From a virus, in the IMG/VR virus record IMGVR_UViG_3300034106_000815, positions 1 to 32,980 of that record: a DNA stretch of 32,980 nucleotides, one strand, 5' to 3'. The translations under genes and the position numbers were made by a program. The notes under the pieces were generated by a model. The model did no database searches. It had not been told where the DNA came from and worked only from the letters and a program-made list of their open reading frames with translations. This document shows positions 2,821 to 24,390 of the stretch, piece by piece (positions within the stretch are counted from its first letter, which is position 1; every line of letters starts with the position of its first letter).

Positions 2821-3651
2821 TCATGCAGCAATTTGCCACGTTTCAGAGTTGTCGGAGATGGGAGTCCAAGTCTCGGGCGTATCGCTATCAGCGGCCCAGC
2901 TTGTCGAGTTATCAGAAACCGCAGTCCAGACCTCGGATGTGTCTTGGATGCTTGTCCATGTCTCTGATGTATCGGATTCCGGCGTCCATTTTAGGATAGC
3001 AGAAACGGATACGCTAGATGAGCAAACAACTGAAGAAGCAGCATTTAGTCTGCTTACAACCCTGATGGAAGTTTGCGACTGTGATGCAATCGATACCTGA
3101 TTGTTGAATGTCCCAGTAGTGTTGATCGTAAGAGTAGATGCACCGTTAAGTTGAAGCGATGCTATGGGCACCCTGGTTGCGGCAAGCGACATCGAGCTTG
3201 CACTTGCAGCGGTAAATGATGCAATGCCATACCTGAGCGCAGATACGCTCATTGATGATGAACTTGCTGCCGAGCATGATGCAATTGCGTAACGAAGCGC
3301 CGATGCGCTCATCGTTGATGAACCAGCAACCGCAAAAGAAGATTTGGCAATAAGCGAAACAAAAACGCTGAGGCTAGATGTCGAACTAGCGTTAAATGCA
3401 CCGACCGCGTACCTTAAAGCTGATACGCTTGCAGACGAAGATGACGAAGCCAATACCGATACATTGGCTGTTGTTTTTGCAGATACCGATACAGTAGAAG
3501 ACGCAGAAACCAACACCGATATGTTGGCTGTTCTTTTTGCAAATACCGATACAGTAGAAGACGCAGAAATAGAAAAAGAAGCATCCTGAACCACTACAGC
3601 GCTTGGTAGCGCTGAAAACGGTATTTCAGAAAATGCAGAAAAGCCAAGCAT
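2821..3651 (-). CDS. Ser/Ala-rich repeat protein, probable tail fibre or adhesin
   Basis: This 276-aa protein is almost entirely repeats. From residue 37 to 216 it runs in 20-residue units, for example SALRYAIASCSAASSSSMSV followed by SALRYGIASFTAASASSMSL. At DNA level the unit is 60 bp; ATACCGATACAGTAGAAGAC recurs exactly 60 bases apart at 3483 and 3543. From residue 222 tryptophans recur every 10 residues (222, 232, 242, 252, 262, 272) in units such as WTPESDTSET. The alternating small and hydrophobic residues suggest a beta-solenoid or fibrous shaft. It lies between two tail-fibre-type genes. The specific family is not recognised. Confidence 0.7.
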   Translation of the reverse strand: MLGFSAFSEIPFSALPSAVVVQDASFSISASSTVSVFAKRTANISVLVSASSTVSVSAKTTANVSVLASSSSSASVSALRYAVGAFNASSTSSLSVFVSLIAKSSFAVAGSSTMSASALRYAIASCSAASSSSMSVSALRYGIASFTAASASSMSLAATRVPIASLQLNGASTLTINTTGTFNNQVSIASQSQTSIRVVSRLNAASSVVCSSSVSVSAILKWTPESDTSETWTSIQDTSEVWTAVSDNSTSWAADSDTPETWTPISDNSETWQIAA

Positions 3652-3654
3652 TTT

Positions 3655-3876
3655 TTACTCTAAAGGCTCTTGTTGCTCTGGCGCAAACTCAAGCACCCAC
3701 ACCTGTCGCCACACACCATCGGCATCTTGTTGTGGCTCTTGCTCCACGGCCACCATGCCAAACTCGCGCGGCATGGTTGTTGGCAGAACCAAGGGGATGC
3801 CGGCCTCCTGCAAAGCCTGGACATTGACATTGGCAGGGATGCTGCCGTCTGCATTGAGTAGGAATTGCTTGGGCAT
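3655..3876 (-). CDS. Small tail-associated protein
   Basis: This 73-aa acidic protein (MPKQFLLNADGSIPANVNVQ) has a repeated ALQEAGIPLVLPT-type segment and a C-terminal beta-like part (GVWRQVWVLEFAPEQQ). Similar short proteins occur beside tail fibre genes in many phages and are often annotated as tail fibre assembly or XkdW-like, but I see no decisive motif. It starts two bases after the glycine-rich fibre gene ends and finishes three bases before the repeat protein starts, so the three are co-translated. A role in folding or capping of a neighbouring fibre is inferred only. Confidence 0.6.
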   Translation of the reverse strand: MPKQFLLNADGSIPANVNVQALQEAGIPLVLPTTMPREFGMVAVEQEPQQDADGVWRQVWVLEFAPEQQEPLE

Positions 3877-3878
3877 AG

Positions 3879-5123
3879 TCAGAAGAATGTGATTACACGA
3901 ACATAACCGTTGCCGCCGTTGCCGCCAGCGCCAGAGTTAACGCCATGACCTGCGCCACCTCCAGCGCCGCCGCCTCCAGGGCGGCCTCCATTGCCGCCAG
4001 CGCCTGCTGTAGTTGTGCCAGAACCACCGCTACCGCCACCGCTACCACCAATAAAAAACGACGCGGCGTCAGCTCCATTGCCGCCAGCTCCGTTTGTTGC
4101 GCCAGCCGCGCCGCCTGAGCCAGTGCTAGTAGAAGAATTATTGTAAGCCGCGCCTCCTAGCCCACCAGCGCCACCAAGGTTAGCCGCAGTAGAGGCTGCC
4201 GAAAACCCGGCACCACCGCCGCCGCCACCACCGCGATAGCCTCCGCGATTTGCTACGCTTCCTGTGGAAGTTGTACCGCCACCTCCATTCGCAGAGTAGC
4301 TTGTAGCGCCTTGTGTAATTCCATCAGCACCGCCGCCACCCCCATTGCCTGAGCCACCGCTGGATGTTGTGCCACCACTACCAGTGGTGCCCGGCCTAGC
4401 AAGACCCCAAGAGCCAAATGATGTGCTTGTGCCATCATTACCGGCTGCACCCGAGGTGTCATCAGTGGTTCGTGCGGCACCGCCTGTGCCGCCAGCGCCA
4501 ACAGTAACTGTTTCCGTGCCGCCCAACGCAGCGGCGGGTATCCACAATTCGGATCTTCCGCCAGCACCGCCGCCGCCGCCGCCAGAAGCGGCGGTGCCAG
4601 CAGAACTTAACGCTCTACGGCGCCCAGACCCGCCACCACCGCCGCCACCAAACATCAAGACATAAACCAGTTTCGCGCCTGCTGGCCTAGTCCATGTAGA
4701 TGTGCCAGTAGAAGTGAACTCTTGGATGTCTGCGCTGACATTGCCCCAGGCAGCCGCAGCATTGGGGCCGGCAGAAATCAAGCCTTGCCCAGATGTTCCT
4801 AGATTATTACTAGCAACAACTGCATACTCTCCAGGATATGTGACAAAAACATCTTTGCTGTTTGAGCTAAAGTTAACGGCAGATCCGCTATTGCTAGACT
4901 CCAAAACAGTATCTCTGCTCAGGGTAGTTCCGCTTGACGTATATGTGCCGATCCCAACCTCCCAAGTACCGGCAGCAGAGTCGACTATTGCATAAAAAGT
5001 CGTGTTACCGTTACCAATGACAGAAAAGGACTGATAACCAGAAGCTGCACCAGCAAGCGTAACTGTGCCCGTGCCGGCTGTGGTGGTTGTTTCTTTTACC
5101 CTGTCTTTTATCACCAAAGCCAT
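3879..5123 (-). CDS. Glycine-rich tail fibre / receptor-binding protein
   Basis: This 414-aa protein has two parts. Residues 1-110 (MALVIKDRVKETTTTAGTGT onward) form a beta-rich N-terminal domain found at the start of several phage fibre proteins. After a short segment TSTWTRPAGAKLVYVLMFGG, residues about 160-405 are dominated by glycine runs (GGGGGGGSG, GGSGNGGGGGA, GGRPGGGGAGGG). Such polyglycine-rich regions resemble the stacked polyglycine-II helices of the S16 gp38 adhesin and of glycine-rich tip proteins. It ends in a beta-strand-like NGYVRVITFF. Receptor recognition is likely. The ribosome site GAGGTA precedes the ATG. Confidence 0.85.
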   Translation of the reverse strand: MALVIKDRVKETTTTAGTGTVTLAGAASGYQSFSVIGNGNTTFYAIVDSAAGTWEVGIGTYTSSGTTLSRDTVLESSNSGSAVNFSSNSKDVFVTYPGEYAVVASNNLGTSGQGLISAGPNAAAAWGNVSADIQEFTSTGTSTWTRPAGAKLVYVLMFGGGGGGGSGRRRALSSAGTAASGGGGGGAGGRSELWIPAAALGGTETVTVGAGGTGGAARTTDDTSGAAGNDGTSTSFGSWGLARPGTTGSGGTTSSGGSGNGGGGGADGITQGATSYSANGGGGTTSTGSVANRGGYRGGGGGGGAGFSAASTAANLGGAGGLGGAAYNNSSTSTGSGGAAGATNGAGGNGADAASFFIGGSGGGSGGSGTTTAGAGGNGGRPGGGGAGGGAGHGVNSGAGGNGGNGYVRVITFF

Positions 5124-15780: not shown

Positions 15781-16452
15781 TTAGCCCTTCGCGGCCTTCT
15801 GCGGCAGCGTGAACATTTTAGGCAAACCGACAGGCGCATCAACGTCGAAATCGTTCTCGATGTCCTCGAACCCTGAAGCACCTCCAGCCGGCCTTTCCTG
15901 CTTCACCTCGATGACCGCTGCCCGAAACGGGATTTCCTCCTTGAGCCGCCAGATGTCCTGTCCGATGCCTGACGATACCATCTGCTCCAACTCTGCGATT
16001 GTCCAGACCTGTCTGACATCTGGCCTGATCGCTTGATACTGCACCGCATCAGCTTCAGTCTGGACGACAACCATCACCCCGCGTTCGGTCTGACCTTCGA
16101 CTGCCTTGACCTGACTGATCGGCTCAAGTCCTTCGGACACTGCCCAGGCATCCAAAGCCTTGAAGGCTCTAACCATCCCATCGCAAGCCGCCTTGAACTT
16201 TTCCTCGTCCTGCTTACCCTGAGCATCCCACACGCGCTCGCTCTGAGCGTAAAAACGCTCCCTGAACACACTAGGAACTAAAGTAATCACCCTGCCGATT
16301 CCCCATTTCCGCTCATGTTCACCCTGAGCCTGATCGATTTCAACGAGCCTAGCCTTCATGAACCTAGACCACTCAGACTCCGGAAACGCCAGCTTCTGAA
16401 CCTCTGGCAATTCTCCGCGATTTCTTTTCTTAGCTTTACTCACCACATCCAT
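15781..16452 (-). CDS. Unknown protein upstream of terS
   Basis: This 223-aa charged protein is not recognised. It starts near MDVVSKAKKRNRGELPEVQK and contains SEWSRFMKARLVEIDQAQGE, WGIGRVITLVPSVFRERFYA and a C-terminal acidic stretch DIENDFDVDAPVGLPKMF. No membrane helix or catalytic motif stands out. AAGGAG touches the ATG at 16452, so the true start may instead be the GTG at 16446 or 16443; a GTG at 16464 gives four more residues. It lies directly after the repeat array and before terS, so it could be the first gene of the late operon, or a DNA-binding partner of the repeats. Confidence 0.65.
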   Translation of the reverse strand: MDVVSKAKKRNRGELPEVQKLAFPESEWSRFMKARLVEIDQAQGEHERKWGIGRVITLVPSVFRERFYAQSERVWDAQGKQDEEKFKAACDGMVRAFKALDAWAVSEGLEPISQVKAVEGQTERGVMVVVQTEADAVQYQAIRPDVRQVWTIAELEQMVSSGIGQDIWRLKEEIPFRAAVIEVKQERPAGGASGFEDIENDFDVDAPVGLPKMFTLPQKAAKG

Positions 16453-16471
16453 CTCCTTGTTCACGCTTGCC

Positions 16472-16637
16472 GGTCAAATCGTGACCATTTGACCGCTCTA
16501 CCCTTCCCCGGTCAAATCGCGGGCGGTCAAATCGTCAAAGGTATACCCTTTTGACGATTCGACCGGACATTGCCTGCGGTCAAATCGTCACGATTCGACC
16601 ACGATTCGACCACGATTTGACCACCCCAAATTTGACC
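16472..16637. repeat. Ten-copy GGTCAAATCG repeat array (iteron/operator type)
   Basis: Four perfect plus-strand copies begin at 16472, 16510, 16525 and 16578. One perfect inverted copy (CGATTTGACC) ends at 16622; three inverted copies with one change (CGATTCGACC) lie at 16555, 16591 and 16602; two weaker inverted copies lie at 16485 and 16628. The last close copies are spaced 11 bp, about one helical turn. Copies at 16525 and 16555 form a 40-bp dyad around GTATAC. The array fills the gap between the primase-helicase and the next gene. Confidence 0.9.
16487..16515 (-). promoter_or_regulatory. Candidate sigma70-like promoter within the repeat array
   Basis: On the minus strand TTGACC (16515-16510) and TCAAAT (16492-16487) are separated by 17 bases. 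Three array repeats cover the -35, the -10 and the expected start near 16480. The match to -10 is only four of six, so activity may depend on a protein binding the repeats. It would drive the late genes from 16452 leftward. Confidence 0.45.
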
Positions 16638-16638
16638 C

Positions 16639-18717
16639 CTAAAAGGACTGCTCATCGACCTTAACGGCATCCTCTATCCACACCCACTCGTTATCAATCC
16701 TAACATTTAATGGCCTTCCTTTTTCACTCCTGACCCTTCTCCAAGCCGACCTAAACGCCTCATCGCCCTCCTCATCAGTGCCCATTTTTTGAGCAAAAAC
16801 AGCCCTCCACTGGTCAAGCCTGACGCATTTTCTGGTTCCAGCAGAAACCTTCCAATGTGTACCTTTAGTATTAATCGCCTCACTTAGCGCATCTACTGCT
16901 ATTGCCTGATTTCGACCCTTCCCTGACCTGTTCAGGGCTTCCTTTTTGGCATCACTCATGCCTGAGCGTACTGATTCATCGCTCGGCTGGACGGCTAAAG
17001 ACTTGCGTCCTTCGTCAAGGCTAAGGCTTGGCTTGCCTTCGTCCTCGATGTCGATTTCGACCATCTCGAACCCAAATCTCAGGCCATCCTCGCCGTCCTT
17101 TTGCTTTGAAACCGTCAAAACGCCTCGCGGCTGATCCTCAAAACGGATCAATTCAAGCTCTGTATCGACGGCTCCGAGCAGGCTGGAATGGCCCCGCAGA
17201 CCCTTTGCTGCATCCTTTCCAGAGTGGTGGATGACCATCAGCGCGGCCTCGAATTCCTCCTGCAAGTAGCCGCATGACGTAATGAAAGCTCCCATGTCCT
17301 CGCTGGAATTCTCATTTCCACCGCCAAATGCTCTGGCTAAGGTATCGATAACGATCAAGTCCACCTTGATCTTTATGGCATCGTTTAGCTCCTTGATGGC
17401 AACTGACAGGCTGGCTATGTCCTCCGCGCTGCTTCTAAGGTTGATCTGGTGGCGTACAAAGTAGATCGGGATGCCTCCCTCGATGTTGTGGTGGATGCGG
17501 CAGGCTTTAATCCGCGCCCCTATGCCGCCGTGGCCTTCGCCAGCGATGTAGATGACCGCTCCGTTGTCCGATGGCTTCGCCTGATGCCCAAACCACTGGG
17601 CCTCGCGGGCAATCGCTGCCGCGATGTCCAGGGCTATGAATGACTTAAATGATCCTGGGGGACCGTACAGCGCTACGAAACCATTTCTAGGGATAACCTT
17701 ATCGACAAGCCACTCGACAGGCTCATCCCTGATTTCGTCCCATGCTTCGAGCGTGATGGCTCTACGCTGCGCCTTTTGCTTCGCATCTGGCGCTTCTGGT
17801 GCCTTTGGCGTTGCTTGGGTTTGCTCTGCCGGCGTAGCCGGCATTGCTGCCTCTGGTGGCTTTTCCTTGAGGCGCTCTGGCGTCCTGATCTCCTGCTCCG
17901 AGGTGATTGGGGCTTGCCCCTTGACCAGATCGGCGAGATCCTGCCGCGTCTTGCCTTGCAGGTGTATCCACTCATAGGCATCGTCGCCCAGGTCATCGCC
18001 ACCCAGGTCGATGATCCTGACCGACTTGGCTACCGGCAGAATCTTGGCTGCTGCCTTCCTGGCGTACTTCCAGCCGGGCTGATCGTTGTCCGGGAGGATG
18101 ACAACATTGGCCCCTGCGAAGTATTGCGTGATAGCCTCCGGCCATGAGCCGCTGCCGGCGTGGGACGTTGTGGCGACTGAGCCGAGCGAGATGATCGCGT
18201 CTGCCGCCTTCTCGCCTTCCGTCAGATAGACGTAACGTCCCTTGGAGATCGCGTCGAGCAGCTCGGGCAGCTTGTACGGGACGATCCTCGCGTCACCCAT
18301 TGCCGCGTGTCTGCGGCCTGCCTCGTCCACCTTGATGAGCTTGTAGTCCTTGCCTTTGCTGTCCGTTGTCCTATACCGCTGCTTGATGAATAGGACTACG
18401 CCTTCCTCGTCGGTGTAGTTCCACTCATGCTCAAGCTGCCGGCTTGCCACCATCGGCTTGATGAGCGACAAGGGTTCGGGCCTTTGCTCTAGCTCGGGCA
18501 GCATTCCTCTCTCGCGCATCACGTTAAAGACGGTTCCCTGATCGCATCCACCGTGACAGTGGAAGAGAGGTTTCCCGTCTGTGCCATCACTGATTGACAG
18601 TGACGGGTTCTTGTCTCCATTGCCTCTGCCATGCCCTGGCACTGGGCAGGAGGCGAGCCATTGCCCGTTGACCTTCTTGGCGTTGCCCAGGGTTTTTGCT
18701 ATTTCTTCGGCTTGCAT
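16639..18717 (-). CDS. Bifunctional primase-helicase with RepA-like ATPase
   Basis: This 692-aa protein starts at the ATG at 18717 (MQAEEIAKTLGNAKKVNGQW), after TAAGG. A longer TTG start would lie beyond the preceding terminator and is rejected. Residues 20-62 form a CHC2-like zinc finger (C24, H29, C54, C58 in FHCHGGCDQG). A TOPRIM domain follows (E167 in LTEGEKAAD; D210/D212 in ILPDNDQPG). A Pro/Ala linker (about 285-320) leads to a RepA/RecA-type ATPase with Walker A GPPGSFKS at 352-359, LIVIDTL at 454-460 and VIHHSGKD near 495. A C-terminal helical domain may bind DNA. It primes and unwinds phage DNA. Confidence 0.9.
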   Translation of the reverse strand: MQAEEIAKTLGNAKKVNGQWLASCPVPGHGRGNGDKNPSLSISDGTDGKPLFHCHGGCDQGTVFNVMRERGMLPELEQRPEPLSLIKPMVASRQLEHEWNYTDEEGVVLFIKQRYRTTDSKGKDYKLIKVDEAGRRHAAMGDARIVPYKLPELLDAISKGRYVYLTEGEKAADAIISLGSVATTSHAGSGSWPEAITQYFAGANVVILPDNDQPGWKYARKAAAKILPVAKSVRIIDLGGDDLGDDAYEWIHLQGKTRQDLADLVKGQAPITSEQEIRTPERLKEKPPEAAMPATPAEQTQATPKAPEAPDAKQKAQRRAITLEAWDEIRDEPVEWLVDKVIPRNGFVALYGPPGSFKSFIALDIAAAIAREAQWFGHQAKPSDNGAVIYIAGEGHGGIGARIKACRIHHNIEGGIPIYFVRHQINLRSSAEDIASLSVAIKELNDAIKIKVDLIVIDTLARAFGGGNENSSEDMGAFITSCGYLQEEFEAALMVIHHSGKDAAKGLRGHSSLLGAVDTELELIRFEDQPRGVLTVSKQKDGEDGLRFGFEMVEIDIEDEGKPSLSLDEGRKSLAVQPSDESVRSGMSDAKKEALNRSGKGRNQAIAVDALSEAINTKGTHWKVSAGTRKCVRLDQWRAVFAQKMGTDEEGDEAFRSAWRRVRSEKGRPLNVRIDNEWVWIEDAVKVDEQSF

Positions 18718-22988: not shown

Positions 22989-23231
22989 ATGACCACTTAC
23001 GCGCAGCAAGCGATTTCTGAAATAAAGGACAAGGCCGAGGCGGCAGGCTTTCGCATGTCCGATGTGTGCCGCGTTGCGGAGATCGATCAGGCGCAGGTCA
23101 GCCGCTGGCATGGCGGCATCACCGAGCCGCTCTACGGGTCCGTACGACGGCTGGAGGATGCAGTTAATGCCCTCGTAGCCGCTCGCCTCAAGAAGATGTC
23201 TGAAAGCCTAGAAATAGCCGGCAAGGCATGA
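22989..23231 (+). CDS. HTH transcriptional regulator
   Basis: This 80-aa protein has a helix-turn-helix at about residues 20-45 (FRMSDVCRVAEIDQAQVSRW), of the Cro/C1 type by the A-x-I-D-x-x-Q-x-SRW recognition helix. The flanks are helical (AQQAISEIKDKAEAAG; RRLEDAVNALVAARLKK). It is probably a dimeric repressor or switch protein controlling its own palindromic operator and perhaps the divergent early promoter. No integrase is present in the window, so this does not by itself indicate lysogeny. It overlaps the next gene by ATGA. Confidence 0.8.
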   Translation: MTTYAQQAISEIKDKAEAAGFRMSDVCRVAEIDQAQVSRWHGGITEPLYGSVRRLEDAVNALVAARLKKMSESLEIAGKA

Positions 23232-23692
23232 AAACCATCGGCATCGACATTGGCCTTGACGGCGCAATCGCGCTGATCGAAAACGGCGATCTCTTAGAAG
23301 TCCACGACATGCCCACCGTGACGCTGGAGCGCAACAACAAGTCAAAGCGTATGGTCAATGCCGCCGAGCTGGCCCGCCTTATCAGGCAGGCAGCACCCGG
23401 CTGCGCGTACCTAGAGCGACTTAACGCGATGCCAGGGCAGGGCGTAACGTCAATGTTCTCGATGGGCCAGAGCCTGGGCGTTGTCCTTGGGATACTCGCA
23501 GCCCTCGACATTCCGACAACGACGATCCCGCCTCGTACATGGCAGCGCGCTTTGGATGTGCCGCAAGGCAAGGACGGCTCGCGCTATCGCGCTGCGCAGC
23601 TTTTCCCGGCGCACGCTGAACTGTTCAAGCGCGTCAAGGACAACGGGCGCAGCGATTCCGCGCTGATCGCCGCCTACGGTGCCCGCCAATGA
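23228..23692 (+). CDS. RuvC-like Holliday junction resolvase
   Basis: This 154-aa protein has an RNase H fold with D7 in MKTIGIDIGLDGAIALIENG, E63 in AYLERLNAMPGQG, and D143 in GRSDSALIAAYGAR. The MPGQGVTSMFSMGQSLGVV segment and the IPTTTIPPRTWQRAL strand-helix are typical of RuvC-type phage resolvases. It should cut branched DNA before packaging, linking it to the minus-strand nuclease and SSB. It overlaps both neighbours by four bases. Confidence 0.87.
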   Translation: MKTIGIDIGLDGAIALIENGDLLEVHDMPTVTLERNNKSKRMVNAAELARLIRQAAPGCAYLERLNAMPGQGVTSMFSMGQSLGVVLGILAALDIPTTTIPPRTWQRALDVPQGKDGSRYRAAQLFPAHAELFKRVKDNGRSDSALIAAYGARQ

Positions 23693-24390
23693 AGTGGGAT
23701 AGCCTCGACCCGTTCCCGCATCTGGTGATTGACGGGTTCATGGATGAGCAGCAGGCTCTGCAACTGTCCAGCGACTTCCCAGACTTCGATTCACCGATCT
23801 GGCATTCATACGATAACGCCATCGAGGTGAAGAAGACCTGCAACAACTGGCACCACTTCTCGCCTGACCTGTACAGGTTTTTCTATGACATGAACTCGCT
23901 TGAGTGCATCTTGCCTTTTGAGGCTCTGACGAATGGCAGGCTATTCCCAGACTACGGCCTTCACGGTGCCGGCCTACACATTCACGGCTCTGGCGGTAAG
24001 CTAAACCCGCATCTGGACTACAGCATCCATCCTAAGATCAAGCTGGAGCGCCGACTCAATCTCATCGTGTACCTTAACCCCGACTGGCAGGAGTCGTGGG
24101 GCGGCTCGCTGGGGCTGTGGCGCGATGACAATGGCAAGCCCGGCGAGCTGGTGAAATCAATCGCGCCGCTGTTTAATCGCGCTGTGATCTTCGACACGAC
24201 AAACGCTTGGCATGGACTGCCTGAGCCTGTAGCGTGCCCTGTAGGACAGCACCGCAAGTCCTTGGCGGTTTACTTCCTGTGCGATCCGAGAGAAGGCGCT
24301 GCCTCGCGTAACCGCGCTCTGTTTGCGCCGACTGCGGAGCAGGCCGGTGATGGCGAGGTGATGGCGCTGATTGAGAGGCGGGCGCGTTAA
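23689..24390 (+). CDS. 2-oxoglutarate/Fe(II)-dependent oxygenase (prolyl-hydroxylase-like)
   Basis: This 233-aa protein carries the full iron and 2-oxoglutarate site: H108-x-D110 in LNPHLDYSIHP, H175 in NAWHGLPEPV, and R189 in HRKSLAVYFL. The jelly-roll strands RRLNLIVYLNPDWQESWGGS and NRAVIFDT fit prolyl-4-hydroxylase-like enzymes. Its substrate could be a protein, a nucleotide or a glycan; the genes beside it do not decide. Its stop shares TTAA with the stop of the convergent 246-aa gene, so the two transcripts overlap at their ends. Confidence 0.87.
   Translation: MKWDSLDPFPHLVIDGFMDEQQALQLSSDFPDFDSPIWHSYDNAIEVKKTCNNWHHFSPDLYRFFYDMNSLECILPFEALTNGRLFPDYGLHGAGLHIHGSGGKLNPHLDYSIHPKIKLERRLNLIVYLNPDWQESWGGSLGLWRDDNGKPGELVKSIAPLFNRAVIFDTTNAWHGLPEPVACPVGQHRKSLAVYFLCDPREGAASRNRALFAPTAEQAGDGEVMALIERRAR

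Follow-up and report, generated by a model that had tools for sequence, protein, structure and literature searches.

The window analysed here is a single virus record from IMG/VR, 32,980 bases in length. In it, an array of short repeated sites (iterons) takes up the whole interval between two genes: on one side is the stop codon of a primase-helicase gene, one base from the array, and on the other a gene for a protein of 223/227 amino acids (aa), with terS and terL next. The features of the locus, by position in the window, are as follows.

15781 to 16464, minus strand: conserved 223/227-aa gene, directly downstream of the array in relatives
16472 to 16637, both strands: iteron array (ten GGTCRAATCG-type sites), a candidate replication origin
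16472 to 16481, plus strand: iteron, exact
16485 to 16494, minus strand: iteron, one mismatch
16510 to 16519, plus strand: iteron, exact
16524 to 16565: central dyad of two inverted iterons around a stem of variable, self-complementary sequence with a conserved AAGGGTATACC apex (minus strand reading)
16578 to 16587, plus strand: iteron, exact, forming a tight inverted pair with 16591 to 16600
16591 to 16622, minus strand: three direct iterons at 11-bp spacing (starts 16591, 16602 and 16613)
16628 to 16637, minus strand: degenerate iteron (GGTCAAATTT, two mismatches) abutting the primase stop codon
16639 to 18717, minus strand: primase-helicase gene, 692 aa, ATG at 18717
16672 to 16923, minus strand: C-terminal winged-helix domain, the predicted iteron reader (AF2 and fold comparison)
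16729 to 16761, minus strand: predicted recognition helix, residues 653-663
16747 to 16749, minus strand: codon of Ser657, which covaries with the variable repeat bases

Sites on the plus strand start at 16472, 16510, 16525 and 16578, and those on the minus strand at 16485, 16555, 16591, 16602, 16613 and 16628. Nine of the sites have at most one mismatch and the remaining one is the degenerate copy, all within 166 bp. The exact GGTCRAATCG unit occurs eight times in the 32,980-base record, always inside the array, and allowing one mismatch across the 33 kb gives nine sites with none outside it. Simulated sequences with the same dinucleotide make-up as the record (first-order Markov, n = 30) contained 0-4 sites per 33 kb, never two within 170 bp. 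The first-pass annotation had described ten sites in both orientations at 16472-16637, between the primase-helicase and the terS side of the late genes, with a dyad around GTATAC. All of the sites were found as placed, the gene order agrees, and the dyad pairs 16524-16539 with 16550-16565.

The primase-helicase has a CHC2/TOPRIM-like N-terminus, a RepA-type AAA_25 helicase and a predicted C-terminal winged helix; a longer reading frame (to 18777) is not conserved. The AAA_25 match is strong (2e-39), while the CHC2 zinc ribbon and Toprim_2 give weak matches in 7 of 13 relatives. Comparison of the profile with the PDB returned a sole match, the RSF1010 RepA helicase (1G8Y, E 0.004). As the AF2 model of the entire protein was poor (17 sequences, pLDDT 47), the C-terminal domain was modelled alone. 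The last 105 residues (47 sequences) were predicted to form a winged helix with a mean pLDDT of 80 and per-block means of 74-97 over residues 11-100, with helix 66-76 of this model in the recognition position. VIA-align returned weak, generic winged-helix matches, including Orc1/Cdc6 and CAP (Z 6-7); the absence of the P4 alpha binding domain among the matches listed carries no weight either way. Foldseek with this domain gave no significant match in the PDB. Among the loci examined, the domain was not found as a separate protein (an Odn-like nuclease, for example), and nine domain hits in reading frames below 450 aa all fit C-terminal fragments of the primase gene. The 223/227-aa protein had no clear match in Pfam or PHROGs. 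Elsewhere in the window, a Holliday junction resolvase and a 2OG-Fe(II) oxygenase are encoded on the plus strand (23228-24390), with nearly all other genes on the opposite strand.

An array accompanies the primase-helicase gene in at least 90 distinct IMG/VR relatives, in several named phages and in prophage-like loci. The IMG/VR scans reached loci of about 54% identity and took in the best 80 per scan; hundreds more exist. Wherever an IMG/VR relative has sequence past the gene an array is present, sometimes after a spacer. The unit differs by lineage, with all copies in an array changing together. The lineage units are GGTCRAATCG, GAACAAATCG, GGGACAAATCG, GTAACAAAC, GTTACAAAC, GAGACAAA and ATCAGAA, and further ones are TGTCAAATCG, GTGACGAATCG and CGACAAA. 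Two units are mixed in the arrays of L025 and L027. An array also follows the primase-helicase in Rhizobium phage 16-3 (unit GCGTGACAA), in RHph_N65 (GGCGGAGAT) and in the Roseobacter phages CRP-811 and CRP-823 (ACTACAAA). In GTDB genomes, some distant loci share the gene-array arrangement, many of them alphaproteobacterial. Four homologues (L142, L143, L146 and L149) have no array immediately after the gene. In MW202711 the array, of unit GGGACA, is displaced 1.6 kb by inserted genes and by eye lies directly upstream of the 227-aa gene homologue. The first-pass annotation had counted a lack of the array in related phages among the outcomes that would refute its reading; relatives carry arrays, in favour of the replication-origin part of that reading. 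It had also suggested searching phage genomes for the motif. GGTCRAATCG proved to be a single version among at least seven that are specific to lineages, so that a search with the window motif alone would miss the system.

Several variations on this layout were noted. In MW202711 (L241 3849-5257), small reverse-strand genes, one annotated as an MqsA-like antitoxin, lie between the RepA-type gene and the array, and the 223/227-aa protein is kept beside the array even here (by eye). In the L042-type loci (L042, L045, L048, L051 and L055), the primase frame enters the array and a TGA within a unit serves as its stop, so that the iterons overlap coding sequence. One or two units sit right after the primase stop, apart from the main array, in L086, L091, L105, L106, L110, L112 and L117; the spacer in these loci is about 100-150 bp, AT-rich by eye, and might serve for DNA unwinding. 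Some close relatives of the window (L030 at 3513-4574, also L031 and L056) have an insert of about 1 kb from an ssDNA-binding-like gene to the primase start.

The variation among arrays bears on which protein recognises them. L017 and L018 differ in their units (GAAC versus GGTC), and yet their 227-aa proteins share 97% identity. Being near-identical while the units change, it is not the reader of the variable bases, and it was ruled out as the binder. The first pass had listed the 223-aa protein, a winged-helix protein and the primase as candidates. The likely binder is not the 223-aa protein or a separate winged-helix protein, but the predicted winged helix at the C-terminus of the primase-helicase itself.

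It is this domain that changes with the array. In pairs of relatives with similar backbones and different units, the body of the enzyme and the next gene are about 80-97% identical in DNA. In the clearest pairs, identity drops to 25-65% across the array and the final 300-400 bases of the gene; pairs with closely related domains show a milder drop (66-87%). The ATCAGAA-type domain has 16% identity to the others and occurs on backbones 79-86% identical to the window protein. This type is found on six different backbones and requires six changes on the enzyme-body tree. The possibility that it is an unrelated domain was dismissed by profile comparison (97% probability at 16% identity), which identifies it as a far-diverged relative. 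The simplest reading of these alignments would be that domain and array move jointly by recombination, as a roughly 0.5-kb cassette with conserved sequence on either side. Because domain and sites are adjacent, they would be swapped together, and a phage would thereby gain a new private origin type. A selective reason for such swapping, for instance escape from competitors or parasites, is speculation.

Within the domain, one residue stands out. Position 657, which precedes AW in the helix, was compared with the dinucleotide before C[AG]AA of the repeat at 92 distinct loci. Methionine was paired with AA in 18 of 18 loci, threonine with TA in 27 of 27, serine with GT in 17 of 17 and lysine with GA in 17 of 18, the exception being L202. 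Alanine is ambiguous (9 GA and 3 GT). When all primase columns were ranked by mutual information with the repeat (87 sequences, Neff 27), residue 657 was the most informative, accounting for 0.86 of the label entropy, with 0.74 for the next column. As the whole domain is swapped, some correlation with the repeat exists at every one of its columns; the special status of residue 657 is derived from this rank together with convergence.

On a tree of the enzyme body, built with the domain left out, the repeat type changes 28 times and residue 657 changes 30 times. In independent pairs, residue changed with repeat for M-AA in five of five cases and for T-TA in about eight of eight (p 0.008); for K-GA, six pairs changed in the same sense and none in the opposite, with three undecided. 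A tree of the domain, built with the recognition helix left out, separates near and far domains as two clades with 100% support. The Met and Lys forms each occur in both clades, and M-AA and K-GA must therefore each have arisen at least twice. Loci outside the set from which the rule was found were compared by eye and agree with it: MW202711 has lysine with GGGACA, 16-3 arginine with GTGACA, L137, L138, L139 and L160 arginine with GGGAC, and L140 and L157 lysine with GTGAC. The ambiguity of alanine, the exception of L202 and the mixed arrays of L025 and L027 indicate that other residues must contribute, and 657 alone of the helix positions was singled out as a contact. It appears from this covariation that one residue of helix three (Ser657 in the window) largely predicts the two variable repeat bases. 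In terms of the code, lysine would largely specify G, methionine A and threonine T before AC, with serine going with GTC.

The central dyad has a conservation pattern of its own. Across 16 sequences (64 cells), the four pairs of the stem that lie beyond the iterons have undergone 18 double changes and are never broken, whereas the outermost iteron positions of the dyad are sometimes unpaired (8 cells, columns 9-11). The apex is AAGGGTATACC in the near group and GAGAGTCTA..AGACTC in the far group and in L050. This covariation suggests a folded or cruciform step, with a symmetric protein site as a possible alternative reading.

Explanations that do not involve replication must be weighed against these observations. 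The first-pass annotation had read TTGACC-N17-TCAAAT as a candidate late promoter and had proposed a late-gene switch beside, or in place of, an origin. The string does exist, with TTGACC at 16489-16494 and TCAAAT at 16512-16517, both on the plus strand, and it consequently faces back towards the primase 3′ end, away from terS and terL on the minus strand. It is not kept in relatives, since the GGTC part is replaced there. A promoter scan gave no sigma-70 site in the array, no terminator match was found at it, and conserved -35 and -10 elements facing the late genes, as a sigma-70 late promoter would have, are absent. Wrongly directed, negative in the scan and lost upon unit change, the late promoter was rejected. 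An operator or late-gene switch, in which a regulator or the primase-helicase itself binds the repeats and controls transcription of the 227-aa gene, terS and terL, is unlikely. It would suit the location of the array, which occupies a space between genes that run on one strand and always immediately precedes the 227-aa gene. Binding beside that gene could also regulate it, and an origin-bound enzyme could influence through-transcription as a side effect. However, the sole promoter-like string faces the opposite way, with no sigma-70 or terminator match, and disappears upon repeat change. The array also tracks a domain of the replication enzyme and not the 227-aa protein, as the 97% identity between L017 and L018 demonstrates.

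The folding of the region raises the question of whether the repeats might instead act at the RNA level, as the arms of a hairpin located beyond the primase gene (an attenuator, a leader or a processing site). Both strands fold far better than shuffled sequences (z about -7), and the compensatory changes in the central stem agree with this. Yet the array includes direct repeats, which cannot all pair, and the outer arms of the dyad in L025, L027 and the L042-type loci are different units that remain unpaired. With no Rfam family at threshold and the match to the DNA-binding domain left unexplained, a structured RNA is very improbable. The terminase small-subunit gene lies 0.75 kb away, which would fit a packaging (pac/cos) or partition site. 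That the repeats covary with the primase-helicase, and that the array of MW202711 moves with the 227-aa homologue, make such a site scarcely credible; nothing in these observations ties the array to the terminase.

The pattern of covariation makes it very likely that the C-terminal domain of the primase-helicase targets the array. That it is the phage replication origin, with iterons bound by the primase-helicase encoded beside them, is likely by analogy; this reading is based on the function of the enzyme and on precedents of the same layout (SaPI Rep, P4 alpha and pRN1). The replication-origin half of the first-pass proposal is well supported, with arrays kept beside the gene and the repeat tracking the C-terminal domain. 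GC skew is uninformative on the origin because nearly all genes lie on one strand. In the proposed mechanism, several primase-helicase molecules would dock on the iterons via the winged helix, the third helix of which would recognise the variable bases by means of residue 657, as inferred from covariation. The central dyad would open or fold as a hairpin, providing a loading place for the RepA-type helicase and TOPRIM primase, and replication would start at the array.

Comparable systems have been described. The P4 alpha protein combines a TOPRIM primase, a helicase and a C-terminal winged-helix origin binder in one chain, and short iterons are present at the origin in ori/crr, as cited from Yeo et al. 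2002 in PMC4234260. The window protein likewise has primase, helicase and a predicted C-terminal winged helix in one chain. Its helicase is of the AAA_25/RSF1010-RepA type, unlike the SF3 helicase of P4 alpha, and no SF3 (D5-type) domain was found in it. Compared with ori/crr, the window record, which may be incomplete, has one cluster of exact repeats, and unlike in P4 its sites directly follow the gene. For SaPI Rep and SCCmec Cch2, the iterons that the C-terminal domain recognises are found immediately past the gene that encodes it (PMC7581432), and those of the window likewise lie directly downstream of a putative initiator-helicase gene. The SaPI/SCCmec helicases are of the DUF927 and D5/Primase_Cterm types, in contrast to AAA_25, and neither was found in the window protein; these elements are staphylococcal satellites or chromosomal cassettes, whereas the kin of the window are tailed phages. 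RSF1010 has a separate iteron binder (RepC), helicase and primase, with iterons and stem-loops (PMC4234260). The RepA-family helicase, the iterons and the stem-loop of the window are similar, but here the covarying domain belongs to the primase-helicase chain. An RSF1010-type origin also has ssi hairpins that the primase recognises; in the window a covarying central stem is present.

The pRN1 ORF904 is a primase-helicase with a C-terminal winged helix, and its origin lies downstream of the gene and has a stem-loop that keeps its shape and not its sequence (PMC4234260). Unlike the window, pRN1 is without iterons and has an archaeo-eukaryotic primase and an SF3 helicase. Exchange of specificity also has parallels. 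The PLE RepA/ori modules and the ICP1 nuclease Odn are a case in which the binding domain varies together with the origin and the two are exchanged as one unit; each PLE RepA functions with its own origin only (PMC8263062). The PLE initiator is of the RepA_N type without primase or helicase and there are two replicon types, as against at least seven repeat units in the window family. In geminivirus Rep, one domain residue and one iteron base change together, and recombination of a few hundred bases switches the replication type (PMC2974675). This is a rolling-circle initiator of plant ssDNA viruses, and the protein is unrelated to that of the window. The window system resembles the P4 alpha and SaPI Rep origins in its working and is a member of neither by helicase type. 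No description of the phage module was found in the open-access literature searched. In that literature, neither the combination, nor the number of types, nor the swapping of cassettes in tailed phages seems to have been described.

To our knowledge, the replication origins of most tailed phages are unknown. The family to which the window belongs probably carries a hypervariable specificity cassette of winged helix and iterons, exchanged in a manner like incompatibility types, in which residue 657 largely sets the repeat bases through a convergent code. The position of the origin and the binding domain of its initiator could then be deduced from sequence for hundreds of phages, and the natural variants would constitute ready-made matched and mismatched pairs. 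If this is true, the family would hold a natural one-residue/two-base code for a winged helix. It would also mean that phages frequently swap origin types, which would bear on coinfection, on satellites and on the cause of this diversity.
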